Shown here one piece after another: positions 3,384-20,590 of a stretch of DNA of 21,399 nt. Position numbers and translations under genes: made by a program. The notes under the pieces were generated by a model. The model saw nothing but the letters and a program-made list of their open reading frames with translations. It was not told where the DNA came from and did not search any database. This DNA comes from a virus. Where the stretch lies: positions 1 to 21,399 of IMG/VR virus record IMGVR_UViG_3300032006_000111; one strand, written 5' to 3'. Each line of letters opens with the position of its first letter. The stretch's first letter is position 1.

Positions 3384-4001
3384 ATGGCTACTTCAGCAGC
3401 ACCGTATGGAGCCAGACCCATTGGTACATTAAGTGCATCAGGCTCATATACGGGCAAGGTGCGTCATTTACCAATTATTACCACATATGGAACCGCTATT
3501 TTTAATGGCGATTTCGTTAAGGTTGCAGCAGACGGTACGATTGCAAAAGATACTGGTACTACTGCCTTGACTAGTTGTGGTATTTTTATGGGATGCTCTT
3601 ATACGGACCCAACAAGTGGACAAAAGACGTTTAGTACACAGTGGCCTGCATCAAACGCAGCAACCGATGCAATGGCTTATGTGCTCGACGATCCTTTTGT
3701 CGTGTTTCAAATGCAAGGTGACGAAGCACTGAACACCACAGACCGTGGACTTAACGCGTCTGTTGTTCAGACTGCTGGTAGCACTGCGATTGGAAAATCC
3801 AAGAACGCTTTGGATGCTTCAACACCAGCTACCACGAACACGCTTCCTCTTCGTATCCTCGACTTTGTCGATGGACCGACGAGCTTGCCTCCGAAAGGAA
3901 CGACCGCGAGTGATGCCTACCCTGATGTCATTGTGAAATTCAATGCCGCGTCGAGTGGGTCAGCCTCTAATCATTCATACTTAAACGCCACTGGCGTATA
4001 A
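3384..4001 (+). CDS. Virion protein next to capsid gene, possibly head decoration, 205 aa
   Basis: The gene lies directly upstream of the major capsid gene with a 14-base gap; RBS AAAGGTAA is at 3369-3376. The sequence is rich in Ser, Thr, Ala and Gly with few charged residues, as in secreted or virion beta proteins. Segments include 'GARPIGTLSASGSYTGKVRH', 'GTAIFNGDFVKVAADGTIAK' (a beta-barrel-like strand pair), 'CGIFMGCSYTDPTSGQKTFS' and 'AYVLDDPFVVFQMQGDEAL'. A small beta protein coupled to the capsid gene is typical of decoration or stabilising proteins (lambda D, SHP analogues), but no specific family is identifiable by eye. There is no signal peptide or transmembrane segment. A minor capsid protein is the main alternative. 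Confidence 0.7.
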   Translation: MATSAAPYGARPIGTLSASGSYTGKVRHLPIITTYGTAIFNGDFVKVAADGTIAKDTGTTALTSCGIFMGCSYTDPTSGQKTFSTQWPASNAATDAMAYVLDDPFVVFQMQGDEALNTTDRGLNASVVQTAGSTAIGKSKNALDASTPATTNTLPLRILDFVDGPTSLPPKGTTASDAYPDVIVKFNAASSGSASNHSYLNATGV

Positions 4002-4015
4002 TAGGAGACTGACTT

Positions 4016-4921
4016 ATGGCTATATCAAGAGCACAACTGCTCAAAGAACTATTGCCTGGACTTAACGCCCTCTTTGGAATGGAGTATGCACGTTATGATG
4101 ACGAGCATGCTGCACTCTATGAGACTGAGAGTTCAGATAGGTCCTTTGAGGAAGAAGTAAAGCTTTCGGGCTTCGACGCTGCTCCCGTTAAAGATGAGGG
4201 ATCAGCAATTTCTTACGACGCTGCACAGGAGAGCTTCACGGCTCGCTACAACCATGAGACTATCGCCATGGGCTTCGCTATTACAGAAGAAGCTATGGAA
4301 GATAATCTTTATGACTCCCTGTCGGCTCGTTACACTAAGGCTTTGGCTCGTGCCATGGCCCATACTAAGCAAGTGAAAGCAGTAGTTCCGCTTAACACTG
4401 GCTTTGATTCTTATCAGTCTGGCGATGGGGTATACTTGTTTAGTGCGTCTCACCCACTAGTTAGTGGTGGAACAAACGCTAATATGCCCAGTACCCATGC
4501 TGACCTCAATGAGACTTCTCTTGAGGCTGCGGTAATTCAGATTGGCAAGTGGACAGATGAGCGTGGTCTAATGATCGCTGCTCGTCCACAGACACTTGTA
4601 ATCCCACCTGATCTGCAATTCGTTGCGGCACGGGTGATGCAGTCTGATCTTCGTCCTGGAACTGCTGACAACGACATTAACGCTGTGCGTTCAATGGGTG
4701 TTGTACCTGGTGGAACCGTTGTAAATCATTATCTAACCGATACTGACGCATGGTTCTTGCTGACAGACGTTCCTAACGGAATGAAGCACTTTAATCGTGT
4801 AGCTTTGGAAACAAGCATGGACGGTGACTTTGACACTGGAAATGTTCGCTACAAGGCTCGTGAGCGGTACAGCTTCGGTGTCTCCGATCCATTAGGGATC
4901 TGGGGAACAACGGGAGCATAG
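4016..4921 (+). CDS. Major capsid protein (HK97-fold type), 301 aa
   Basis: A strong RBS (TAGGAG, 4002-4007) precedes the ATG, fitting a highly expressed gene. The short N-arm (LLKELLPGLNALFGMEYARY) leads into 'EEVKLSGFDAAPVKDEGSAI', an E-loop-like region rich in acidic residues. 'ITEEAMEDNLYDSLSARYTK' followed by 'ALARAMAHTKQVKA' (about 89-122) is a long helix corresponding to the HK97 spine helix. 'DERGLMIAARPQTLVIPPDL' and 'VVPGGTVVNHYLTDTDAWFL' match the P- and A-domain strands seen in Mu gpT-like and podoviral capsid proteins, and the ending 'RYSFGVSDPLGIWG' is typical. The length is close to the unprocessed size for this type, and no protease gene is visible here. It builds the icosahedral (or prolate) shell. 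A terminator-like hairpin follows, isolating the capsid message. Confidence 0.85.
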   Translation: MAISRAQLLKELLPGLNALFGMEYARYDDEHAALYETESSDRSFEEEVKLSGFDAAPVKDEGSAISYDAAQESFTARYNHETIAMGFAITEEAMEDNLYDSLSARYTKALARAMAHTKQVKAVVPLNTGFDSYQSGDGVYLFSASHPLVSGGTNANMPSTHADLNETSLEAAVIQIGKWTDERGLMIAARPQTLVIPPDLQFVAARVMQSDLRPGTADNDINAVRSMGVVPGGTVVNHYLTDTDAWFLLTDVPNGMKHFNRVALETSMDGDFDTGNVRYKARERYSFGVSDPLGIWGTTGA

Positions 4922-4929
4922 TGTGAACT

Positions 4930-4993
4930 AGAGGTGGGGATGGCCTGACCTTAATCCGACGGGTCGGCCTCCCTGCCTCTTTATTATTTATTC
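4930..4993 (+). terminator. Hairpin with T-rich tail after the capsid gene
   Basis: The 5' arm 4930-4950 (AGAGG, GGGGA, GGCC, GACC blocks) pairs with 4962-4980 (GGTC, GGCC, TCCC, CCTCT blocks) through an imperfect stem with single-base bulges and a loop of about 11 bases. It is followed by CTTTATTATTTATT. This has the layout of an intrinsic terminator, although the T tract is interrupted by A. It lies in the 121-base gap between the capsid stop and the next ATG, a position where phages often place a partial terminator. Strength is not predictable by eye. Confidence 0.7.
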
Positions 4994-4998
4994 CCTGA

Positions 4999-5016
4999 CT
5001 ATCGGCAAACCGATAG
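4999..5016 (+). promoter_or_regulatory. Perfect 7-bp hairpin in the leader of the 5043 gene
   Basis: CTATCGG (4999-5005) and CCGATAG (5010-5016) form a perfect inverted repeat around a CAAA loop. No T tract follows, so it is unlikely to be a terminator by itself. It lies 14 bases upstream of the strong Shine-Dalgarno AGGAGA (5031-5036) of the next gene and just after the capsid terminator. It could protect the 5' end of a processed message, be an RNA-processing site, or be a protein binding site. No -10/-35 promoter is recognisable between it and the preceding hairpin. Confidence 0.5.
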
Positions 5017-5042
5017 ACACTGGCCACGACAGGAGAACTTAA

Positions 5043-5567
5043 ATGGCTAACACAACTTTTTCAGGACCAGTCCGATCAGAAAATGGGTTTGAGGTAGTAT
5101 CGAAAAACTCATCGACTGGAGCAGTTACAACATCTTTTACTTATGACGGTTCAGGGATGCAGGTTGCACCTGTAACCTTATCCGATGCTGATACTTCGAT
5201 AACTGCTGCCACTCATGGTGGTAGGGTTGTTGTAGTTCCAGCCATTGGGAGTAATCGTACACTGACACTTCCCAGTCCTGCTGAGGGTGTGTCTTTTACG
5301 TTTGTTTACGGTGGAGCGGCAGAAGAAGCAGAGAATCTGATTATTGATACTGGTGCTGATGCTAACTACTTCATCGGTGGAGTTGTCCATATAGATTCTG
5401 ATGCGGACAGTGTGTCCGTGTACGCAAATGGTAGCTCCAACTCAATTTTAACCCTTACTGATTTTGGTCTCATGGAGATTAATATCGTAGCAAAAGATTC
5501 AACGAATTGGATTATTTGGGGTTACACACAAGGTGCAGACGCACCTGCGTTTACAGATCAATCGTAA
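5043..5567 (+). CDS. Phage structural protein of unknown position, 174 aa
   Basis: Ser/Thr/Gly/Val-rich beta protein. It begins 'ANTTFSGPVRSENGFEVVSK' then 'NSSTGAVTTSF'; this 'TTFSGPVRSENGF' opening is one I know from virion proteins of marine phages placed after the capsid gene. The middle, 'ITAATHGGRVVVVPAIGSNR' then 'TLTLPSPAEGVSFTFVYGGA' (about 53-100), is a beta fold like those in capsid-decoration or fibre head domains, and the end contains 'STNWIIWGYTQG'. It has its own strong RBS (AGGAGA, 5031-5036) and a leader with a perfect hairpin after the capsid terminator, implying separate expression control. It could be a head fibre or decoration protein. No catalytic motif, signal peptide or membrane segment is visible. 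Confidence 0.7.
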   Translation: MANTTFSGPVRSENGFEVVSKNSSTGAVTTSFTYDGSGMQVAPVTLSDADTSITAATHGGRVVVVPAIGSNRTLTLPSPAEGVSFTFVYGGAAEEAENLIIDTGADANYFIGGVVHIDSDADSVSVYANGSSNSILTLTDFGLMEINIVAKDSTNWIIWGYTQGADAPAFTDQS

Positions 5568-5580
5568 TTAACAAGATAGG

Positions 5581-5606
5581 GTCACCCATCTATCTGGGTG
5601 GGTGAC
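5581..5606 (+). promoter_or_regulatory. Leader hairpin with two alternative pairings
   Basis: GTCACCC (5581-5587) can pair with GGGTGAC (5600-5606). The inner CACCCA (5583-5588) can instead pair with TGGGTG (5595-5600), and GATAG (5575-5579) can pair with CTATC (5590-5594). These are mutually exclusive structures in the 93-base leader upstream of the 5661 gene. No T tract follows. This is direct inverted-repeat evidence; a regulatory role is inference. Confidence 0.45.
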
Positions 5607-6059: not shown

Positions 6060-6733
6060 TGGCTACTTCGGGAACAGCAACATTTAATTTAGATATATCA
6101 GAGGTTATCGAAGAAGCATTTGAACGGTGTGGCTTACAGAGCAAGACAGGCTACGACATAGAGACTGCTCGCAGATCTCTCAACCTTCTTAGTCTTGAGT
6201 GGGCTAACCGTGGTCTAAATTTTTGGTGTGTAGAACAAGGTACTTCAAGCACTACTGCTAGTACCTCAACCGTTACACTTCCTTCTGATACAGTTGATTT
6301 AATAGAATACTGGATTAGAGATGGTTCGGGTACATCACAAAGTGATCTACCTCTCTCACGATTTAGTGTATCTCAATACTCCACTATTCCTAATAAGCTT
6401 ACTGAAGGTAGACCTGTAAACATATACATTGATAAGCAAAGGGCTGCACCTGTTGCATACCTTTGGCCTACACCAGATAAGGTCTACACTCTTGCATATC
6501 AAAAGATTAGACGAATAGAAGACACTGGCTCAGTAGGTTCTACCAACCCTGATGTTCCTGCACGATTCTTACCTGCATTAGTTTCTGGATTGGCGTTTCG
6601 TATTTCACAAAAATACCCAGAAGCTTTTGCACGTTCCATGGAATTAAAGCAGGAGTATGAGTTTCAATGGGATCTCGCTCAGTCCGAAGATCGTGACCGA
6701 GCGTCTGTACACTTTGTGCCAGGGGGTTATTAA
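6059..6733 (+). CDS. Head-closure/tail adaptor protein, P22 gp4-like, 224 aa
   Basis: The sequence 'DISEVIEEAFERCGLQSKTG' then 'YDIETARRSLNLLSLEWANR' (about 13-52), followed by 'GLNFWCVEQ', is the helical core of gp4/gp11-like connector proteins, in which a helical bundle docks to the portal. The middle beta part 'STVTLPSDTVDLIEYWIRDG' and 'INIYIDKQ'-like strands (VNIYIDKQRAAPVAYLWPTP) match the C-terminal beta extension. The final helix 'LVSGLAFRISQKYPEAFARS' then 'MELKQEYEFQWDLAQSEDRD' is typical of this group. It seals DNA in the filled head and provides the platform for the tail. Size is slightly larger than P22 gp4 (about 166 aa). It is coupled by 1-base overlaps to both neighbours. Confidence in the connector role is good, in the exact family moderate. 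Confidence 0.75.
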   Translation: MATSGTATFNLDISEVIEEAFERCGLQSKTGYDIETARRSLNLLSLEWANRGLNFWCVEQGTSSTTASTSTVTLPSDTVDLIEYWIRDGSGTSQSDLPLSRFSVSQYSTIPNKLTEGRPVNIYIDKQRAAPVAYLWPTPDKVYTLAYQKIRRIEDTGSVGSTNPDVPARFLPALVSGLAFRISQKYPEAFARSMELKQEYEFQWDLAQSEDRDRASVHFVPGGY

Positions 6734-7068
6734 TGGCACGTTTTGCTAATGGCAAGTATGCTTTCGGCTTTTGTGATCGCACGGGCTTTAGATATAAATT
6801 AAAGGATTTGGTTCCTCAGGTGAAAGCGGGTCGTATGACTGGCCTTATGGTTGGTCGTGATGTGCTTGATGAGGACCAGCCTCAAAACTTTTTGGGCAGA
6901 TTAGGCGACTATGCAGACCCGCAAGCATTGCAAAATGCTAGACCAGATATAGCACAAGACAATAGTAGAGAATTAACTGCTTGGGACCCAGTGGGTAATG
7001 GTAATGGTGGTGGAGGTGGGAACCTAGTAGCACGAGGCAGCGTGGGAATGGTAAAGGTGACTACATGA
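6733..7068 (+). CDS. Small conserved-style phage protein, 111 aa, unknown
   Basis: It starts at ATG 6733, overlapping the gp4-like stop by one base. The N-terminal half 'ARFANGKYAFGFCDRTGFRY' then 'KLKDLVPQVKAGRMTGLMVG' contains an FCDRTGFRY segment that resembles half of a zinc ribbon, but only one cysteine is present, so a metal site is not supported. 'YADPQALQNARPDIAQDNSR' precedes a glycine run (GNGNGGGGGN) and a short beta tail. I have seen this arrangement, between gp4-like and adaptor genes, in marine podoviruses as an unnamed protein. A connector or tail accessory role is inferred from location only. Confidence 0.65.
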   Translation: MARFANGKYAFGFCDRTGFRYKLKDLVPQVKAGRMTGLMVGRDVLDEDQPQNFLGRLGDYADPQALQNARPDIAQDNSRELTAWDPVGNGNGGGGGNLVARGSVGMVKVTT

Positions 7069-8952: not shown

Positions 8953-9717
8953 ATGGCAAATGTAACAGGTTGGGGCCGATCTACATGGGGTTCTGGTACT
9001 TGGGGTAACCCCATACCTGTTGAAGTAACAGGTATAGCAGGCACAGGTGCAGTAGGTTCGGTATCAGTTGCAGGCGATGCAAATGTTACAGTTACAGGAC
9101 TGGCTGGAACAAGTGCAGTAGGATCAGTATCAGTAACCGCAGATGCAAATGTTACTTCTACGGGAGTGGCAGCAACGGGCGGAGTAGGAAGCGTTACGGT
9201 AACGGGTACAGCAAATGTTACCTTAACGGGAGTAGCTGGAACAAGTGCAGTAGGATCGGTTAGTGTTGCGGGAGATGCAAATCTTTCGGTAACAGGTTTG
9301 GCTGGAACGAGTGCACTAGGCTCGGTATCAGTAACTGTAGATGTATCAATTACAGCTACTGGCCTGGCTGCAACAAGTGGATTAGGATCAGTAACAGTTG
9401 CAGGTGATGGCAATGTTGATGTTACTGGATTAGCTGGAACTGGTGCAGTAGGAAGTGTGACTTTTATTGGATCAGTTGAAATAGATGCGGTAGGTGTAGT
9501 TGGTACAACGGGAACACCAAGTGTAAATGTATGGGGATTAATAGATGACTCACAAACTCCTAGCTGGTCGGAAGTCTCAGATTCACAGACTCCTGGTTGG
9601 TCCGATGTCTCAGATTCACAGACCCCTGGTTGGTCTGAGGTCTCTGATTCACAAACTCCTAGCTGGTCATCTGTTAGTGACTCACAAACTCCAGACTGGG
9701 AGCCTATAGGGCGATGA
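8953..9717 (+). CDS. Repeat-built virion protein, probable tail appendage, 254 aa
   Basis: A Trp/Gly-rich start 'WGRSTWGSGTWGNP' (residues 7-20) precedes eight tandem units of exactly 22 residues (25-200) of consensus VTGLAGTSAVGSVSVAGDAN; the last unit is degenerate. Five units of 11 residues of consensus SDSQTPxWSxV (198-252) follow. The first array has the alternating polar/hydrophobic pattern of a beta-helix or stacked beta-hairpin shaft; the second resembles a Trp-Pro-rich extended rod. Only the final residues EPIGR are unique. Such proteins are common in marine phages and metagenomes as uncharacterised tail or appendage proteins. The start at 8953 follows the previous stop by one base. 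Which virion structure it joins is not shown by the sequence. Confidence 0.7.
   Translation: MANVTGWGRSTWGSGTWGNPIPVEVTGIAGTGAVGSVSVAGDANVTVTGLAGTSAVGSVSVTADANVTSTGVAATGGVGSVTVTGTANVTLTGVAGTSAVGSVSVAGDANLSVTGLAGTSALGSVSVTVDVSITATGLAATSGLGSVTVAGDGNVDVTGLAGTGAVGSVTFIGSVEIDAVGVVGTTGTPSVNVWGLIDDSQTPSWSEVSDSQTPGWSDVSDSQTPGWSEVSDSQTPSWSSVSDSQTPDWEPIGR
9025..9552 (+). repeat. Eight tandem 66-bp units (22-residue repeat) within the 8953 gene
   Basis: Repeat starts fall at residues 25, 47, 69, 91, 113, 135, 157 and 179, an exact period of 22 codons. DNA identity is also visible: a 23-base block occurs identically at 9103-9125 and 9235-9257, which are 132 bases (two units) apart. This suggests recent duplication or exchange among units, while the outer units are more diverged. 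Confidence 0.85.
9544..9708 (+). repeat. Five tandem 33-bp units (11-residue repeat) within the 8953 gene
   Basis: The residues DSQTP recur at 199, 210, 221, 232 and 243, an exact 11-codon period, with W two residues after each DSQTP. DNA units resemble gactcacaaactcctagctg and are nearly identical between copies, with changes mostly at Ser/Gly and Glu/Asp/Ser positions. Confidence 0.85.
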
Positions 9718-10969: not shown

Positions 10970-12874
10970 ATGTCGTATGATAATAATTTAAGACTATATG
11001 AAATTGCCACAGGTGGCGAAGACGGTACTTGGGGCACCAAGACCAATACAAACTTAGAGCTAATAGCCGATGCGTTTGGTTCTGGCACAGAAGCCATTAC
11101 TGATAACGCTGACAGTCATACCACTACGATAGCAAATGGTGCAGCAGACGAAGGTCGAGCAATCTTCCTTAAGTACACAGGAACCTTAGACTCTGCCTGT
11201 ACAATTACTCTTGCACCAAATGATGTTAATAAACTGTGGTTTATTGAGAACGCTACGAGTGGCTCACAGAATATTATTATCAGTCAAGGTGGTGGTGCTA
11301 ATATCACCATAGGTAATGGTAATGTAGCAGCAGTTTATACAGATGGTGCTGGCTCTGGGGCGGCTGTTATTGACGCATTTGCTGACCTAGAACTAAGTAG
11401 CACACTTACTGTAGCTGGTGCAAGTACACTTACAGGTGCCGTTACTGCTGGTGCAGGAATTACAGTTACAGGAACGACTCCAACTGTCACTATTGGTGAT
11501 GCTGGGGCAGAAGATACCAAGTTAGTATTTGATGGAAATGCTCAAGATTTTTATATGGGATTGGATGATTCAGCAGACGATCTAGTTATAGGTCTTGGTT
11601 CCACAGTCGGAACTACACCAGCCGTTACTATAGATGAGGACCAAGCAGTTGTATTTCCTGCTGCAACTGTAACGATAGGTGATGGGACAGCAGAGGATAC
11701 CAAGCTTGTCTACGATGGTAACGCTGTAGATTTTTATATGGGCTTGGATGATAGTGCTGACAAACTAGTAATAGGTGTTGGTTCTACAGTAGGAACAAAT
11801 AGTATTCTTACCCTAGACAATGACTCATTAACCATTGGAGATGCTTCAGCAGTTGATACTAAGGTAGTCTTCGATGGAAATGCTCAAGACTTTTATGTAG
11901 GGCTGGATGATTCAGCAGACGACCTAGTAATAGGTGTTGGTTCTACGGTAGGAACTACTCCTGCAATTTCAGTTACTGAAGATCAAGATGTGATAATGAC
12001 CGCTACAAAAAAACTCTACCTAGATGGTGGCGGTAATAGCTACATCTACGAAGCTTCAGCCGATTCGGTTCAAGTAGTAGCTGGTGGCACGGCATCTTTG
12101 TTTGTAACTGATGCTGGCATTGGAGTTCCAGCCACTAATAAAATTTGGCTAGACAATGGCGGCAATACTTATATCCGTGAAAGTTCTGGAGATACAATAT
12201 GCTTTACCACTGAAGGGTCAGACAACTTCAAATTTGCATCAGATGGAGGAAATCCATCTATCCAGATACTCGCTAACGCAGGGGGTGCCACAGGAACGGT
12301 TGAATACTCCGAAGGCGGAACGCAGTTCTGGCAACATGGAGTCAGGGGTGCTGATGAGAAGTGGTATCTGACTGGCAACGCCACACTCCACAGTAGCTAT
12401 GCACTAATGATTTCTGGACAGGATGTAACTGTCGGAGGAGCATTAGCCAAGGGTTCGGGTAGTTTTAAGATCGACCATCCATTGCCTTCAATGAAAGATA
12501 CGCATGATTTATATCATTCGTTTATTGAGGGACCAAGAGCCGACTTAATTTATCGTGGACAGGTAGACCTTGTAGGTGGACAGGCTACGGTAGAAATGGA
12601 CGCTGAGTTTGGAATGACTGCTGGAACTTGGGAATTATTGTGTAGAGATGCTACTTGTTTTACTACAAACGAGACAGGCTGGCACATGGTTAAGGGTTCT
12701 GTATCTGGAAGCACTTTGACTATTGAATGCCAAGAGAGCGACTGTACTGATACAGTGTCATGGATGGTAGTAGCTGAACGTCAGGATCAACATATGTATG
12801 ATACGGAATGGACGGATAGCGATGGAAGGCCAATCCTTGAACGTGAAAAACCAGAAGAAGTTGAAGACCTATAG
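10970..12874 (+). CDS. Tail fibre protein, 634 aa
   Basis: RBS GGAAGGAGA is near 10956-10964. The N-terminal domain (1-140) starts 'SYDNNLRLYEIATGGEDGTW', a type of attachment domain I know from marine phage fibres, followed by 'TITLAPNDVNKLWFIENATS'. The stalk 140-172 is Thr/Ala/Gly-rich (STLTVAGASTLTGAVTAGAG). Three repeats of about 48 residues begin TIGDxxAxDTK at 174, 235 and 288. Two shorter units (KLYLDGGGNSYIYEASAD and KIWLDNGGNTYIRESSGD) follow. The C-terminal domain, 'GSFKIDHPLP' (496-505) then 'DLYHSFIEGPRADLIYRGQV', is found at the ends of many phage fibres and is probably a trimeric tip domain. Four cysteines cluster late (CRDATC, CQESDC). No S74 peptidase motif is visible. It should form trimers that bind the host surface. 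Confidence 0.8.
   Translation: MSYDNNLRLYEIATGGEDGTWGTKTNTNLELIADAFGSGTEAITDNADSHTTTIANGAADEGRAIFLKYTGTLDSACTITLAPNDVNKLWFIENATSGSQNIIISQGGGANITIGNGNVAAVYTDGAGSGAAVIDAFADLELSSTLTVAGASTLTGAVTAGAGITVTGTTPTVTIGDAGAEDTKLVFDGNAQDFYMGLDDSADDLVIGLGSTVGTTPAVTIDEDQAVVFPAATVTIGDGTAEDTKLVYDGNAVDFYMGLDDSADKLVIGVGSTVGTNSILTLDNDSLTIGDASAVDTKVVFDGNAQDFYVGLDDSADDLVIGVGSTVGTTPAISVTEDQDVIMTATKKLYLDGGGNSYIYEASADSVQVVAGGTASLFVTDAGIGVPATNKIWLDNGGNTYIRESSGDTICFTTEGSDNFKFASDGGNPSIQILANAGGATGTVEYSEGGTQFWQHGVRGADEKWYLTGNATLHSSYALMISGQDVTVGGALAKGSGSFKIDHPLPSMKDTHDLYHSFIEGPRADLIYRGQVDLVGGQATVEMDAEFGMTAGTWELLCRDATCFTTNETGWHMVKGSVSGSTLTIECQESDCTDTVSWMVVAERQDQHMYDTEWTDSDGRPILEREKPEEVEDL
11489..11974 (+). repeat. Three imperfect repeats of about 144 bp in the tail fibre gene
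   Basis: Units at 11489-11632, 11672-11815 and 11831-11974 encode TIGDxxAxDTKxVxDGNAx followed by DFYxGLDDSADxLVIGxGST. Spacings of 183 and 159 bases differ because the linkers vary. Repeats one and three share DGNAQDFY and end VGTTPA; repeat two ends VGTNSI. They look like stacked shaft modules. Confidence 0.85.
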
Positions 12875-13337: not shown

Positions 13338-15728
13338 ATGAGCTTTATAAAAATTTCTCCCAAGCCAGGAGTTTTTACGGATGGTACTAGGTACTCCGCA
13401 GAGGGTACTTGGTATGACACAGACAAGGTAAGGTTTAGAAAAGGCTTTGCTGAAAAGCTTGGCGGGTGGGTAAAGTTTATAGCTGCCTCATTTCTTGGTA
13501 CAGCTAGATCTGTACATGATTGGGTTACGGATGGCGGAAGTAAATATGTAGGAATTGGAAGCCATTTAAAACTCTATGTAGCATTAGGTGGTGGCTATTA
13601 CGATGTTACTCCGTTACGTAGTAGTGTAAACTTAGGATCTAATCCAATAGCTACGGTTAATGGAACATCAATTATAACAATTACTACTTCTTCTGCACAT
13701 GGTGCGGTAGTTGGAGATTATGTTACTATTGCGAATGCAGCCACTTCTAGTGCTATTGATGCCGCTGAGATAAACAAGGAACATCGTATTGTTGCATTGG
13801 GTGCCCCGCCTTCTGGTGGTGCAGCACCAACCGCTCCTACAACTAAGTTTAGAGTTATGTGTGCATCAAAAGCTAATGCAACGGCAAATGCTGGAGGTTC
13901 TAGTGCTACGGCTGCGTTCCAGATTAATACTGGTTTGGATATGTATGTTGATGGTGCTGGATGGGGATCAAGCACGTATGGATCTAGTACATTTGGTACT
14001 GCATCCAGTCTGAGTCAGGCTACTCAATTACGTCTGTGGTCCCTGGATACTTTTGGCGAAGATATGCTTGCATGTGTTCGACAGGGTAAGATCTATTACT
14101 GGGATGAAAGTGACGGTGTTACTGTTAGAGCTAAACCGCTTGAAGAGGTTGTTAGAAGAACGCTAAATCTAACATCTGATCCTATATCTGTTAATAATAC
14201 TTCTAGTGTTATAACGGTTACAGATAGAGGTGGTCATGGAGCAGCCGTTGGAGATAAGGTTACCTTGTCAGGAGCGGCTGATGTTGGTGGTGTGGCCGCT
14301 GACAGTATTAATCAAGAGTTCACTATTGCAAGTACACCTACTGGTAGAACATTTACAGTTGATACTGGAGATGCAGCTTCTAGTACCACAACTGGAGGTG
14401 GTTCGTCGGTCAATGCTTCTTATAAAGCAGGAACTTACTATCCTCCTGTCGGTGCCTATCAGGTATTGATGTCTGAAACTGGTCGCCATGTAGTAGCATT
14501 GGGATGTACTGGGGTCAACTCAACAACTATTAATCCGCTTAATGTTAGGTGGTCAAGTTCAGAAACCGTTGGTACTTGGCAAGCACTTTCTACTAATAGT
14601 GCAGGTGGACAAGAGTTATCTACAGGATCTGAGATTATAGGTGGGCTTGCTACTAGGCAGGAAATATTAATTTGGACAGATGCTGGGCTAGTAAGTATGA
14701 GGTATATCGGAAGTCCTTTCTACTTTTCATTCACAGAAGTAGGAAAAGGAATGTCTATGATCTCACCAAATGCAGCCGTAAATGCTAATGGTAGGGTTTT
14801 CTTTATGGATAGAGGAGACTTTTATACATATACGGGTTCGGTACAGAAACTAAATTGTACCGTACTAACGACTGTTTTTCAAGATTTTGATATAGGTCAG
14901 AGGCATAAAGTTGTAGCAGGATCTAATCCTGATTTTTCTGAAGTAATTTGGTTTTATCCATCTGAGTCAGGAAGTGGTGAAAATGACAGATATGTTATAT
15001 ACAATTACGAAGATAGCATATGGTATACAGGTAGCCTGATACGTGGTAAGTGGAGTCAGGCGAACACAAAAGACTATCCGTTAGCATCTTCTATATTAAG
15101 CAAAAGTCTTGATGCCAACCCTATAACTACTAACACAAGCTCTACAAGCAATGTATCTATTTCTAGTACAGGTCACGGCTTGGGTGTTGGTGATACTATT
15201 ATTATTAGTGGTGCGTCAGCCGTTGGAGGGTTGTCCGAAACACTTCTCAATAATCAACACGATGTAGTTTCGGTGACAGATGAAGACAACTATACAATTA
15301 CAATAGCGGACACAGCTACAGCAGACACTGGCGGAGGTGGCACGGTAAAGATTGCTTACGAAAATGTTCTTTACAGCCATGAGAATGGATATGATGACGA
15401 TGGATCGGCCATAACTGCTTATGTAGAAACAGGTGATATGGACTTAGGAGAAGGTGATAAAGCTTGGTCAATACATAGAATAATACCTGATATTTATTTT
15501 ACAGATGCTGACTCAGGAGACGAGGTCACTATTAGTCTTAATGGCCACAATTTTCCTGCTGATACACAAACATCTATTGCATCGGCAGCATTTACATCAA
15601 GCACAGCACAAGGCTTTGTTCGTGCTAGGGCTAGACAGGTGTCAATGAAGGTGCAGAGTAGTGGTGCTGGTTATGGATGGCGTGTAGGATTTGTTAGGCT
15701 TGATGGCAGGGAGGACAGTAGACGATGA
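13338..15728 (+). CDS. Tail hub/nozzle-type protein with three inserted repeat domains, 796 aa
   Basis: The start 'FIKISPKPGVFTDGTRYSAE' then 'GTWYDTDKVRFRKGFAEKLG' (about 3-42) and the end 'GFVRARARQVSMKVQSSGAG' then 'WRVGFVRLDGREDSRR' belong to a large tail protein common in marine podoviruses. I place it with P22 gp10-like hub / nozzle proteins that form a beta-propeller ring below the connector. The propeller core has blade-like 'SVHDWVTDGGSKYVGIGSHL', 'ILIWTDAGLVSMRYIGSPFY' and 'SEVIWFYPSESGSGENDRYV'. Three insertions of roughly 84-95 residues (about 101-195, 281-364, 592-675) share an HGxxVGDxVxIxxA...N...T pattern, making the protein much longer than P22 gp10 (about 470 aa). It lies between the small overlapping genes and the 15725 gene, whose ATGA start overlaps its stop by 4 bases. 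Exact family not confirmed. Confidence 0.75.
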   Translation: MSFIKISPKPGVFTDGTRYSAEGTWYDTDKVRFRKGFAEKLGGWVKFIAASFLGTARSVHDWVTDGGSKYVGIGSHLKLYVALGGGYYDVTPLRSSVNLGSNPIATVNGTSIITITTSSAHGAVVGDYVTIANAATSSAIDAAEINKEHRIVALGAPPSGGAAPTAPTTKFRVMCASKANATANAGGSSATAAFQINTGLDMYVDGAGWGSSTYGSSTFGTASSLSQATQLRLWSLDTFGEDMLACVRQGKIYYWDESDGVTVRAKPLEEVVRRTLNLTSDPISVNNTSSVITVTDRGGHGAAVGDKVTLSGAADVGGVAADSINQEFTIASTPTGRTFTVDTGDAASSTTTGGGSSVNASYKAGTYYPPVGAYQVLMSETGRHVVALGCTGVNSTTINPLNVRWSSSETVGTWQALSTNSAGGQELSTGSEIIGGLATRQEILIWTDAGLVSMRYIGSPFYFSFTEVGKGMSMISPNAAVNANGRVFFMDRGDFYTYTGSVQKLNCTVLTTVFQDFDIGQRHKVVAGSNPDFSEVIWFYPSESGSGENDRYVIYNYEDSIWYTGSLIRGKWSQANTKDYPLASSILSKSLDANPITTNTSSTSNVSISSTGHGLGVGDTIIISGASAVGGLSETLLNNQHDVVSVTDEDNYTITIADTATADTGGGGTVKIAYENVLYSHENGYDDDGSAITAYVETGDMDLGEGDKAWSIHRIIPDIYFTDADSGDEVTISLNGHNFPADTQTSIASAAFTSSTAQGFVRARARQVSMKVQSSGAGYGWRVGFVRLDGREDSRR
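13638..13922 (+). repeat. Inserted domain copy 1 in the tail hub gene
   Basis: Residues about 101-195 contain 'ITTSSAHGAVVGDYVTIANA', then N-K-E-H-R-I-V and a 'TTKFRVMCASKANATANAGG' strand, aligning with copies 2 and 3. This is the longest copy and carries extra Ala/Gly/Pro-rich sequence (APPSGGAAPTAPTT). Confidence 0.65.
14178..14429 (+). repeat. Inserted domain copy 2 in the tail hub gene
   Basis: Residues about 281-364 read 'VITVTDRGGHGAAVGDKVTL' then 'SGAADVGGVAADSINQEFTI', and end with a TFTVDTGDAASS strand and GGG. This copy is the best match to copy 3. Confidence 0.75.
15111..15362 (+). repeat. Inserted domain copy 3 in the tail hub gene
   Basis: Residues about 592-675 read 'NVSISSTGHGLGVGDTIIIS' then 'GASAVGGLSETLLNNQHDVV', followed by 'NYTITIADTATADTGGGGTV'. 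The shared core is G-H-G-x-x-V-G-D-x-[VI]-x-[IL]-S-G-A-x-x-V-G-G. Confidence 0.75.
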
Positions 15729-16254: not shown

Positions 16255-18906
16255 ATGGCTTATATGCAACACAGGCAAGATCCTTTCATGGGTAGTGCAG
16301 AAGAGATGGGAGATCCAATGCCTTCTATGGGAATGCCGATGCCCCAGCCTAGCTATCAGCCCCAACAACAGGCCCAACAAACACTCAATCAAGTTGCTCC
16401 AATGACTATGGCAACAATGCCACAGACAGGCTTGCTTGCGACACCACCGCCAGCAAGACCATTAGGGCAACCAATAGGTGTTGAGCCACAGCAACAGCAA
16501 CAGCAACAGCAAATAATGCAACAGCAACTAATGCGTGCTGCTCCGATGACAATGTCTACGATGCAACCGATGCAACCGATGCCAGGACCAACTGCACAGC
16601 CTATAGGTAGACCTCCTGGGTTTGCACCGACAATGTCACCTGCCCCTGTGCAAGAGCCTGGTGGTGGCGAAGGTGGTGGTCACCAGATAGTTCATGCGGC
16701 TGATGGTGGAATGATTCCACAATATGGAATGGGTGGCCTTATAGGTCTTAGAGGTGGTGGAACCGTACCTATGATTTATTCTGGTGGTGGTTATATACCA
16801 GGGTATGGGCTTGGCGGATTTTTTAAAGGACTGGGTAAATTTGCACTAAAGGCTGCTCCTTATGCAGCGATGTTTACTCCTGGTGGCCCATGGGCTTCAG
16901 CCGCTGTTGCCGCAGCAACTGGTGCTCTAGAAAAGAAGTTGGGCATTGATCAGGAATCATGGGGAGATGTTCTTCATGGTAGAACGGTAAAAAAGAAACC
17001 AACTAGTTGGAGAGAAGCATTGGGTGCAGGGGCAAAGAGGGGTGTCACGGCTTATGCTGGAAGAAAACTTGCAGATGCCGCCCGTAAAGGATGGAAGGGA
17101 CCAAGTGCGGAAGAGCTACAAGCGGACTATATGGACGAAATTGCAGAATTTACAGGAGATCCTGGAGCAATCCCAGGTGCTGCTCCATCAGCACTTACAT
17201 CAGGGTCTGGATGGAGGGGTGCGTTAGAGGGAGTAAAGGGTGCTGCTGGGGAGCTTATTCCAAGTTATGAAGATGTGTTGAAGTATGGTCCATTAGTAGG
17301 TGAGATAGCCAATAGGTTATCAAGGGACCCAGATATGTTGGCTGCGGGAGCAGCGTCAACTCTTCCGTTCCCAGGGCATGTAACAATGCCTAAGGAGATA
17401 ATGCCACGATCTAGTGCTGCTCAAGGGTATTCAGACCTTATTGGGGTACAGGAAGGTGGTGAGCTTGATGAGTTTGAGGAACCAATGCATCCATTTATGG
17501 CTCAATTGTCCAACACTGTTCCCAATACAATGGCATCTATGCCAACACTTCCACAGGGGAGTAATGGTAATTTACCAACAAATCCATTTATGGATGAACT
17601 GTCTAGTGCTGTTCCCAATACAATGGGTAGCATGAATACAGAAGATATGTTGTATGGAGGGGGCGGAGGAACAGGCGACAGCTATGATCCGATGCTTGAT
17701 GTGCCACAGGTAGGAATGTTTTCTACAGGCGAACAAAAGGCAGCAGCAGAGGCACAGAAAAGACAAGATGAAGCGAATGCAATAGAAGCAAAGAAGAAGG
17801 CAGAAAATCCTTACGGTGAAGTCCCTGCTGAAGTATTGAGTGGTGAACGGGAAATGACACAAGAGGAAGTTGATAAACGTGCTGGTCTTATAGAAAAAGA
17901 AATGGATAGACAGAAAAAACAGGCAGAGACTCAAGAGGAAAAAGAAGTTGGTGCAGCCAGGGCAGCGGGAAAGACAGAAGAAACATATCCTCAAAAAGAT
18001 AATACTAGTGGCATGCTGGGAGTTGCAGGTATAAACCGAAAGTCTAATCTTGGACCTGCTCCATGGGAAAATGTTCCAGAAATGCCAGAGGGTTATCGTG
18101 CTGGACTTCATCCAGAAGGTCAGTTAGGTAGTATAACTGGCTACAATCCATTTGATATGCCTACGTCAGGGTTTGGTACAGATGCTGATGCGTTTCTAGA
18201 AAGGCTTAAGGGTGGAAGTTCTCAGGAGCAACCGACTACGCCTCAGTGGCAACCTGATGTTACACCTACTTTTGATGCAGAGGGAAACCCAACAACTGCT
18301 GGTGTAAAAGGTGTACAAGCAGTTCCGCCTCAACAGGTTCCAGGAAGTGCTGATGGTGGTCCAGTTATTTCTACGATGGATACAGTTTATGGAGGAGAAG
18401 TTCCTCCTGACTATCAAGGTCAAAGCGGAAATGTAGATACAAAGCTGGCTGTAACTTTAGCTAATGCTCCAATGACACCAGAGGATGTTGGAATGGATAC
18501 AAGGGAGATTAGAGATACGATTGAGTGGGCATTATTAAATCCTGTAGAAGGGCAGGAATTTCTTGAGCTTTTTAAGCAAATGTTTGGTGAACAGCTTATT
18601 CAAGAAATAGCAGAAGATATAATGGACCTGCAAAGTCCTTCTTCAGATCCTAATATTACGATGAATGATAGGGAGGATCGGCTTGTAGAATTAGAAACGA
18701 GAAAAAGACTTGCAGAAGGAGAGCCAGTAATTCCTCAAGCCATGGTGGCGGGTGGTGAAATGGTGATTAATAGATTTGCTACGGATAAAGCTGGTGTAGA
18801 AAATCTAGAAAGTATAAATGAAAATTTAAGAAGAGATAATCCTGTAAACTTTGAGGAAGTTAGACATCATATTAATGAAGCTGCAAGGTTGAGCCAAAAT
18901 GCCTAA
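16255..18906 (+). CDS. Large Met/Pro/Gln/Gly-rich protein, candidate internal or ejection protein, 883 aa
   Basis: ATG 16255 (AYMQHRQDPFMG) is preferred over an in-frame ATG at 16234, which lies inside the previous gene and adds 7 residues; the normal 1-base junction supports it. The first 130 residues are disordered Met/Pro/Gln-rich, with eight consecutive Gln (about 79-86). Residues 149-170 hold 'ADGGMIPQYGMGGLIGLRGG', then a Gly/aromatic part and a hydrophobic helix-like region (FFKGLGKFALKAAPYAAMFT, about 190-209). A second signal-like 'LIGVQEGGE' occurs near 395-403. Four copies of P[MN]TMx[ST]M are scattered along the protein. A charged helical region (500-600) follows. The C-terminus has 'AMVAGGEMVINRFATDKAGV', resembling the 'SDGEFVM/xA' endings of tape-measure-like proteins (by eye). 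An internal or ejected virion role is inferred. Confidence 0.6.
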   Translation: MAYMQHRQDPFMGSAEEMGDPMPSMGMPMPQPSYQPQQQAQQTLNQVAPMTMATMPQTGLLATPPPARPLGQPIGVEPQQQQQQQQIMQQQLMRAAPMTMSTMQPMQPMPGPTAQPIGRPPGFAPTMSPAPVQEPGGGEGGGHQIVHAADGGMIPQYGMGGLIGLRGGGTVPMIYSGGGYIPGYGLGGFFKGLGKFALKAAPYAAMFTPGGPWASAAVAAATGALEKKLGIDQESWGDVLHGRTVKKKPTSWREALGAGAKRGVTAYAGRKLADAARKGWKGPSAEELQADYMDEIAEFTGDPGAIPGAAPSALTSGSGWRGALEGVKGAAGELIPSYEDVLKYGPLVGEIANRLSRDPDMLAAGAASTLPFPGHVTMPKEIMPRSSAAQGYSDLIGVQEGGELDEFEEPMHPFMAQLSNTVPNTMASMPTLPQGSNGNLPTNPFMDELSSAVPNTMGSMNTEDMLYGGGGGTGDSYDPMLDVPQVGMFSTGEQKAAAEAQKRQDEANAIEAKKKAENPYGEVPAEVLSGEREMTQEEVDKRAGLIEKEMDRQKKQAETQEEKEVGAARAAGKTEETYPQKDNTSGMLGVAGINRKSNLGPAPWENVPEMPEGYRAGLHPEGQLGSITGYNPFDMPTSGFGTDADAFLERLKGGSSQEQPTTPQWQPDVTPTFDAEGNPTTAGVKGVQAVPPQQVPGSADGGPVISTMDTVYGGEVPPDYQGQSGNVDTKLAVTLANAPMTPEDVGMDTREIRDTIEWALLNPVEGQEFLELFKQMFGEQLIQEIAEDIMDLQSPSSDPNITMNDREDRLVELETRKRLAEGEPVIPQAMVAGGEMVINRFATDKAGVENLESINENLRRDNPVNFEEVRHHINEAARLSQNA
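16489..16512 (+). repeat. CAGCAA hexamer repeat coding for eight glutamines
   Basis: Four perfect copies of CAGCAA (24 bases) encode eight consecutive Gln in the 16255 gene, with more Gln after a short ATAATG interruption. Changes in copy number would stay in frame. Confidence 0.9.
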
Positions 18907-20590
18907 AGAAAAATATTATCCTAGTTATCAAGTTGGTGGAGAAATAGAAGATGATCCGAGTAAGTGGGAGTCTATTCTAGATATACTCGAAAGAGTTAGG
19001 GGAATGGCTCCGCCTAGCCCCTTAAAACACATACCTGAACAATATCGTGCGTTTCGTGACCGTCGAGAACGGACTAAAAGGATGTTCGAGGCTCCTCAAA
19101 AATGGGATGTCCCGAATGCGAGGCCGAAGCCCTTGGGTGGACCACCAAAAAGTCGTACCTGGGAAGGTATAGAGAAAGATCTTTATGATTTAGAAAACAA
19201 GATGCGTGAGCGAGGAGAAGATCCTACTAATATCTATGATTTACTTGATAAGCTTAGAGAAAGCATGAGAGGCCACCTTCCAATTCCTGAAATAGATACA
19301 TTGCCTCCGCATTTAAGGCCACGAGATCGTCGTCACGAAATCCAATACCCGTATTTAAAAAAAGCATCTAATGGTGGTATTATAGGATTAGAAGATGGTG
19401 GCATGGCTCCTGAAACAACTACTGTTGAAGCCTCTACAGTTAATCCAGCGGTTGGACAACAGTATGCAGATTTAACTGATAGAATTGTACAAGAAGGGCA
19501 ACGGCCCTATCAGCAGTATGGTGGACAAAGAATTGCTGGGTTTACTGGTCCCGAAGCCATGGCACAACAGGGCATAGTTAACTACGGAATGTCTGGCGGG
19601 CCACAAGGTACTCAGCAAGCTGGGGGAACGATGGGTCAGGCGGGACGGATGATGGGTAGTGCGGCACAGGGAATAGGTTCGTTGATGCCAGCCTATGGTG
19701 CAATGAGTGGGCAGTTCGGTGGACATGCTACAGGTGCTCTTGGTGCAGCACAGCAAGGTGCAACTGCTATGGGTACGTTAGGAGCGTCGATGGGTAGCCC
19801 TGCTCAACAAAGTAGCACTGATATGGGTGATTATATGTCTCAGTACACCAAAGGCGTTACAGACCCACAATTAGCACAATTAGCAGAGTTCCAAAAAATG
19901 CAGGGTGAAGAACTTGGTGCCCAAGCTACAGCTTCTGGCAACTTGGGTGGAATGAGGGAAGGTGTTCAGTCTGCACAAATAGCTAGAGATACTGCACAAC
20001 AAGCTGCTGGTATTATTGGCAAGGCACAACAGGATGCATTCGCAAATGCACAGCAGGCATTCCAGGCTGACAGGGCTGCTCAGATGGCTGGGCAGGGACA
20101 ACAGTTACAAGCTCAGCAAGCAGCGGGTGCGTTAGGCCAGGCTGGTTACGGCACTATGGGTGCGTTGATGGGTCAGCAGATGGATGCATTAGGGGCACAG
20201 CAAAGAGCTTTGGGTCAGATGGGTGGCATAGGAGCACAGATGGGTGCCTTAGGTACGAGGCAGGCAAATCTTGGCCAACAGCAGCAAGCACAGCAATTAC
20301 AAAGGCTGAATGCTATGCAGAACGTCGGTGCCCAGCAAAGAGCGTTACAGCAACAGTCAATGAATATGGGCTATCAAGATTGGCAGAATCAACAGAACCA
20401 GAATCGTCAGAATATTAACTGGCAACTTAATGCGATGGGTGCTCTTCCATATCAAAACATACAAGCAAGAACTGATTACACTGGAGTGCCAAGCGATCTA
20501 AATGCATTCTTGGGTGCAGGGGTTAAGGGGATGACACTATATAATCAATATAAAAATGGTGGCTCTACTGGAAATGGAGGCCAGAACTAA
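18899..20590 (+). CDS. Gln/Gly/Ala-rich protein, candidate internal virion protein, 563 aa
   Basis: The ATG overlaps the previous stop by 8 bases. The start 'MPKEKYYPSYQVGGEIEDD' has a partial 'GGE' signal. A basic, charged region of about 140 residues follows, then 'NGGIIGLEDGGMAPETT' (about 158-174), the same G-G-I-I-G-L-x-x-G-G motif as in the neighbours. After it comes 'QQYADLTDRIVQEGQRPYQQ' then 'YGGQRIAGFTGPEAMAQQGI' (about 185-225), which resembles a segment of many unnamed phage proteins. The remaining 300 residues are a low-complexity helical region very rich in Gln, Ala, Gly and Met (QQAGGTMGQAGRMMG; AQQAAGALGQAGYGTMGALM). No lytic transglycosylase or other enzyme motif is visible. 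Coupled to both neighbours, it is probably part of one internal or ejected assembly. Function inferred. Confidence 0.6.
   Translation: MPKEKYYPSYQVGGEIEDDPSKWESILDILERVRGMAPPSPLKHIPEQYRAFRDRRERTKRMFEAPQKWDVPNARPKPLGGPPKSRTWEGIEKDLYDLENKMRERGEDPTNIYDLLDKLRESMRGHLPIPEIDTLPPHLRPRDRRHEIQYPYLKKASNGGIIGLEDGGMAPETTTVEASTVNPAVGQQYADLTDRIVQEGQRPYQQYGGQRIAGFTGPEAMAQQGIVNYGMSGGPQGTQQAGGTMGQAGRMMGSAAQGIGSLMPAYGAMSGQFGGHATGALGAAQQGATAMGTLGASMGSPAQQSSTDMGDYMSQYTKGVTDPQLAQLAEFQKMQGEELGAQATASGNLGGMREGVQSAQIARDTAQQAAGIIGKAQQDAFANAQQAFQADRAAQMAGQGQQLQAQQAAGALGQAGYGTMGALMGQQMDALGAQQRALGQMGGIGAQMGALGTRQANLGQQQQAQQLQRLNAMQNVGAQQRALQQQSMNMGYQDWQNQQNQNRQNINWQLNAMGALPYQNIQARTDYTGVPSDLNAFLGAGVKGMTLYNQYKNGGSTGNGGQN

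Follow-up and report, generated by a model that had tools for sequence, protein, structure and literature searches.

Related beta-barrel modules predicted at three sites of a short-tailed phage tail nozzle, where other members of the family carry different domains or none

The window, by which we mean the whole stretch of viral DNA analysed here (21,399 nucleotides), carries an upstream gene for the major head protein, followed by a fibre-like protein, small ORFs, a tail nozzle protein and a protein of DNA-ejection type. The nozzle gene lies between fibre and ejection genes, as a nozzle gene would, and the gene order is identical in phage SU10. The features discussed below are the following:

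10970..12874, + strand: fibre-like protein, 634 aa, upstream of the nozzle gene; matches phrog_31104 on residues 2-121.
13338..15728, + strand: tail nozzle protein, 796 aa, modelled as a platform and a seven-bladed propeller with three inserted modules.
13629..13925, + strand: Module 1 at site s1 (residues 98-196), placed by strand order where blades 2 and 3 meet.
13986..13991, + strand: empty insertion site sB, residues 217/218, inside the model's one low-confidence loop (209-222).
14163..14429, + strand: Module 2 at site s2 (residues 276-364), placed by strand order where blades 3 and 4 meet.
14535..15092, + strand: propeller stretch without inserts, residues 400-585, counted from the strands as blades 5-7.
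15099..15362, + strand: Module 3, residues 588-675, site s3, in blade 1, at the place of the short-fibre dock loop of SU10.
18899..20590, + strand: protein of DNA-ejection type, downstream of the nozzle gene; matches phrog_4287 with E 1.9e-6.

From its repeats and from the gene order we infer a fibre role for the 634-aa protein (10970-12874, +), whose translation contains several near-repeats of the type TIGD..AEDTK.V.DGNA.DFY.GLDDSAD.L.IG.GSTVGT. Further upstream, a 254-aa protein (8953-9717, +) matches the Pfam family CTD (Spt5 nonapeptide repeat) at residues 200-250 with 33 bits, for a cut-off of 25.4; this is most likely a low-complexity tail.

The 796-aa protein is the tail nozzle of a short-tailed phage, of the P22 gp10 / SU10 gp17 / Pa223 type. 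It belongs to a known nozzle sequence family: the ORF matches phrog_3287 with E 9e-63, and among sequences of the PDB it matches the tail protein of Pa223 (E 2.6e-13) and the VP1 nozzle (E 1.2e-5). NCBIfam gave no match for any of the three proteins tried. Modelled from an input of 65 sequences (pLDDT 87.4, pTM 0.82), the protein adopts the platform and seven-bladed beta-propeller of podovirus nozzles and P22 gp10-type hubs. The model superimposes on Pa223 (9nwi_Y) with a Z score of 32.2 over 467 residues at 2.9 A, on SU10 gp17 with Z 29.7 over 472 residues, on the VP1 nozzle with Z 29.3 and on P22 gp10 with Z 26.1. An earlier note on this DNA had spoken of a hub-like propeller tail protein, and the fold matches with Pa223, SU10 and P22 gp10 bear this out. 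The nozzle is presumably a hexamer. With the Pa223 / LUZ24-type nozzle (PDB 9nwi_Y) the window protein has both sequence family and fold in common; unlike the window protein, that nozzle is only about 513 aa long and has no barrel modules. Annotation libraries file the nozzle protein under 'head and packaging' or 'stabilization protein'.

Three stretches of this protein, each of about 85-95 residues, are related to one another. Local alignment scores were 148 for Modules 1 and 2, 85 for Modules 1 and 3, and 138 for Modules 2 and 3. In 2000 composition-preserving shuffles per pair the observed score was never reached (best shuffle 70, 65 and 80, respectively), and windows taken from the core of the same protein, 29-33 of them compared, scored 40-41 at best, versus 85-148 between modules. 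Self-BLAST of the whole protein at default settings gave no internal match; the excised modules do align with one another. The predicted order of strands, with one short helix, is identical in the three copies, and one module profile retrieves them all. The relatedness claimed in the earlier note, at about these residues, is thus far above chance. The core motif that it proposed, GHGxxVGDxVxIxGAxxVGG, describes copies 2 and 3 well, with one mismatch each, and copy 1 loosely, with five. The copies are dispersed and not in tandem, as had been remarked, and they explain the extra length of the protein: some 530 residues remain without them, versus 492-523 in relatives free of modules.

To place these stretches in the family, 131 proteins were gathered, from which 11 were dropped as short, cut off or otherwise incomplete, and the remaining 120 were reduced to 78 representatives at 85% identity. 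L124 was dropped for the 18 stops in the frame read, and L015, in which an X was present in alignment A1, was excluded from alignment A2. Since the 80 relatives kept came from at least 597, and one of the two search patterns sits at the end of site 1, occupancy counts are biased and the frequency of site 1 is inflated. Inserts of at least 45 residues were confined to six sites (window numbering). Site 1 (104/197) was filled in 73 of the 78 representatives, a figure raised by the search pattern at its edge, and site sB (217/218), empty in the window protein, in 24. Sites 2 (270/369) and 3 (585/674) were each filled in 8, five of the site-2 cases being the window's own clade; sites 94/104 and 392/399 were filled in two and one, respectively. 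Between residues 399 and 585, no insert of 12 residues or more was found in any of the 78.

Nine named relatives have no module at all, namely phiM5, DB2, ctjtQ, MJing1 and LUZ24 (492-513 aa) and tf, Ss1, OH and Lyrsu01 (503-523 aa). The closest group of the window protein, eight proteins, keeps open and similar copies at all three sites, the third being cut off in L004. Judged by these sequence comparisons, the modules are true insertions. They had been predicted to sit as insertions at different places of the propeller, and the shorter homologues that lack them agree with this. The opposite outcome, modules forming part of the core in all homologues with no copies elsewhere, was looked for and was not what we found.

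One module modelled alone (88 aa, pLDDT 94.7) superimposes on the beta-barrel of the phi92 and K1F endosialidases (PDB 1v0e, 3ju4, 4hiz) with Z scores of 10.9-12.0 over 81 residues at 1.9-2.0 A. Foldseek matched the model to 4hiz_A with E 1.4e-4, and the module profile matched PDB endosialidases with E 6e-5 to 1e-4. The next structural group is that of the E1 FCCH domains (Uba6/Uba1), over 70-74 residues and with Z up to 7.8, a value in the range possible for unrelated small folds. On the Pfam side, PF16190 (E1_FCCH) scored 25.0 bits on the whole protein and 19.4 on Module 3 alone, below the gathering score of 29.5, so the module is filed as similar and not as a member; PF12195 (End_beta_barrel) scored 16.9 and 20.6 bits, respectively, for a gathering score of 35. 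Other profile matches in the PDB (phage coat proteins, a peroxidase, an aspartate decarboxylase and a laccase, E 0.02-1) were too weak to be retained. The model thus makes the module a small beta-barrel, to be grouped by fold with the endosialidase barrel and E1-FCCH.

In PMC12632334, the K1F barrel is described as one of three polysialic-acid binding sites and as a hot spot of host discrimination. Residue S460 of K1F, one of two serines quoted there and numbered as in that paper, aligns with the serine of an SGA stretch present in Modules 2 and 3 and missing from Module 1, and the loop that follows the SGA-like stretch is shorter in K1F than in the window's modules. In both endosialidases the barrel is set in an enzyme with a beta-propeller, just as the window's barrel adjoins one; theirs belongs to a tailspike enzyme, whereas the window's is a nozzle. 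By analogy, glycan binding by the modules is plausible. The combination of nozzle and FCCH is already on record, since automatic annotation in BFVD names two such proteins, A0A6J5LGE5 and A0A6J5L3G3, 'Ubiquitin-activating enzyme E1, FCCH domain containing protein'; their nozzle fold matches have E values of 1e-23 and 3e-22, respectively, at low identity (10-11%).

Outside nozzles, the module was sought with single modules of relatives and with a DNA pattern. By tblastn, Module 2 alone had no match in the phage collection at E 0.01. The DNA pattern returned 120 stretches, 26 of which had an ORF accepted by the module profile; we take the other 94 to be mostly chance matches. From these 120 stretches, 25 module-carrying ORFs were non-nozzle by the core profile. 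L137 (724 aa), which is among them, has a match to phrog_3287 at 1e-9; by sequence it is probably a distant nozzle, as are its five close relatives L138, L184, L199, L200 and L212, which leaves about 19 true non-nozzle ORFs. The module was found in proteins of 1687-2229 aa (phrog_358) with DUF4815, in a tail protein (phrog_376) and in a head-closure-like protein (phrog_578). Together with phrog_28581 (see below), these cases confirm that the module occurs in other phage structural proteins, a point that the earlier note had proposed to check. Across the 2708 ORFs of the window and the loci gathered, all 124 ORFs matched by the profile were nozzles; the module is thus not common beside the nozzle gene.

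Two further proteins were noted in this context. At locus L247, a 603-aa protein (3792-5600, +) with similarity to head-closure Hc3 (phrog_578) has at least one E1_FCCH stretch above the Pfam cut-off (31.5 bits), in addition to further module matches. In the window itself, a 111-aa protein of the head region (6733-7068, +) matches the first half of phrog_28581 with E 3e-5. That family has the same barrel module as its second half, which the 111-aa protein lacks, so that a second virion gene also differs in whether it carries the module.

The sites used by the modules can be compared with those of nozzles of known structure. SU10 gp17 (PDB 7z4b, 7z47, 7z4f) is described in PMC9509320 as having four Ig-like nozzle domains inserted where blade 2 passes into blade 3, a channel lined by blades 4-6, and a tri-tryptophan loop that docks the short tail fibre. 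Platform and seven-bladed propeller are common to SU10 gp17 and the window protein. The four Ig-like domains of SU10 share a single site, whereas the barrel modules of the window protein are spread over three sites, one per site. T7 gp12 (PDB 6r21), matched by fold only, also has a seven-bladed propeller, and its inserted domains differ from those of the window protein; according to PMC6702177, a tip domain departs from blade 3, and a beta-barrel fibre dock on the outer surface connects the platform with the propeller's end. In both phages, dock and tip domains are found on the outer side (PMC9509320, PMC6702177).

In the model, we assign site 1 to the junction between blades 2 and 3, strands 56-89 being counted as blade 2 by strand order. 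A profile alignment sets window residues 66-91 on SU10 residues 74-99 (short, E 0.0036), and the extra domains of SU10 come after the stretch matching window residues 89-91. A longer match with SU10 (E 2e-6) ends at SU10 residue 849, in the fibre-dock loop with W839, W847 and W857, which corresponds to site 3 of the window protein. Exactly at site 3, a tri-tryptophan loop is present in LUZ24, tf, Ss1 and Lyrsu01, as in SU10, and absent in OH, DB2, phiM5, MJing1 and ctjtQ. The window protein lacks this dock loop, and Module 3 occupies its place. From the SU10 alignment, the tri-tryptophan loops at site 3 and the place of the T7 dock, it follows that the slot of the fibre dock is taken by Module 3 and that of the tip domains by Module 1. 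Residues 400-585, free of inserts, overlap the channel-lining blades of SU10 only partly.

What fills these slots differs among relatives. On a tree built from core columns, site 1 needs a minimum of 2 state changes, sB of 7, and sites 2 and 3 of 4 each; the tree was made by a quick method, LUZ24 and a few others sit on long branches, and the changes may be gains or losses. The fillings comprise the window's type, a type that we call RG after a '...T-R-G...' stretch, a type with an SGTG-like stretch, and others, and since they differ in kind, separate gains are favoured. L057 has sites 1, 2 and 3 filled like the window protein, but with other types at 2 and 3. The RG type accounts, by a simple pattern, for 15 of the 24 sB fillings and is also found at sites 0, 1 and 3. 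This domain of about 75-90 residues is seen at sB in L009, L024, L056, L067 and others, at site 1 in L084, L086 and HTVC023P (L049), where it lies within or directly beside the site-1 module, and at site 3 in L057 and L118. No Pfam family matched it in the proteins scanned (L009, L057 and L084 among others), and it looks like an undescribed portable phage domain.

The descent of the three copies was not settled by a tree of 90 modules, which is compatible with Modules 2 and 3 being copied from Module 1 or coming from outside. In that tree 8 of 84 inner branches were starred, and none of the groupings of Modules 1 and 2, 1 and 3, or 2 and 3 was rejected (p-AU 0.53, 0.84 and 0.50, respectively). 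A quick tree had put Module 3 with three non-nozzle modules (SH-aLRT 97), a placement that the test of the grouping of Modules 1 and 3 does not support. Nothing in the base composition points to the modules having arrived recently.

Among the relatives the slots are filled repeatedly, by this module or by quite different domains, and this suggests a nozzle that serves as a docking board for host-facing parts. The best explanation is that the family keeps its slots while their contents are exchangeable. On the reading that we favour, and hold to be rather probable, a conserved nozzle channel carries plug-in barrel modules that act as exchangeable domains facing the host, at the tip and at the fibre dock. 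The propeller with its platform, some 530 aa, would form the conserved channel of a hexameric nozzle; three barrel copies are plugged into its loops, s1 lying where blades 2 and 3 meet, s2 where blades 3 and 4 meet, and s3 at blade 1. Module 1, and probably Module 2, would extend the host-facing tip where SU10 has its Ig-like nozzle domains. Module 3, in the slot of the short-fibre dock, would either hold the fibre differently or itself touch the host surface. By the equivalence of sites with SU10 and T7 features the modules may project outward, as the earlier note had suggested, so that they would be placed to contact the host surface, perhaps its glycans, and to replace the fibre dock. In favour of this reading, the modules of the window's clade are somewhat more variable (61-66% mean identity) than core residues 370-796 (74-76%).

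The main rival is a purely structural role, in which the modules are spacers or clamps that fill gaps from one nozzle subunit to the next, or from nozzle to adaptor, and make the tail more stable without touching the host. We regard it as unlikely, though with some evidence on its side: the presence of a filled site 1 in 73 of 78 representatives, the module in head-closure-like proteins, and SU10, whose inserted nozzle domains also clamp neighbouring subunits (PMC9509320). Conservation would fit it too. Between other lineages (600 random pairs), the s1 module equals the core in conservation (48.5% versus 46.2% identity), and within the window's clade core residues 198-275 (63%) show no less variability than the modules do. 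A fixed subunit contact fits poorly, however, with sites 2 and 3 being filled in few lineages and by unrelated kinds, and with nine named relatives that do without any module.

Neutral cargo is a good deal less probable. Here short mobile coding stretches would spread among phage structural genes and be kept in tolerant loops, as the portability of the module across phage proteins, the several unrelated kinds in the same loops and the RG-type domains within or beside the s1 module (L084, L086, HTVC023P) would allow; against this, the eight proteins of the closest group keep their three copies open and similar (as far as L004 extends), no sign of a mobile element was seen, and composition does not point to recent arrival. 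Chance similarity of small-residue-rich, repetitive beta sequence has a negligible probability: the modules are indeed rich in S, T, G and A, but the shuffles, which preserve composition, the shared strand order of the model and the single profile that finds every copy all speak against it.

Insertions in nozzle propellers (SU10, T7) and nozzle proteins named after FCCH are already known, and the newer part of the reading with exchangeable modules is the refilling of slots; in the open-licence literature, we found no description of repeated refilling of the same nozzle slots. A broader proposal, which we put forward as tentative, is that nozzles are plug-in boards, with a fixed channel and few slots that draw on a shared pool of phage beta domains. 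The window's clade would then have a lectin-like barrel in the short-fibre-dock slot, the nozzle itself contacting the host as the short fibre of SU10 does. Fibres and spikes are where the parts that set host range are mostly looked for. Should fixed slots of the nozzle indeed hold exchangeable domains that face the host, these would be overlooked determinants of host range, and the position and kind of insert would be a rule that can be read from metagenomes and put to the test.
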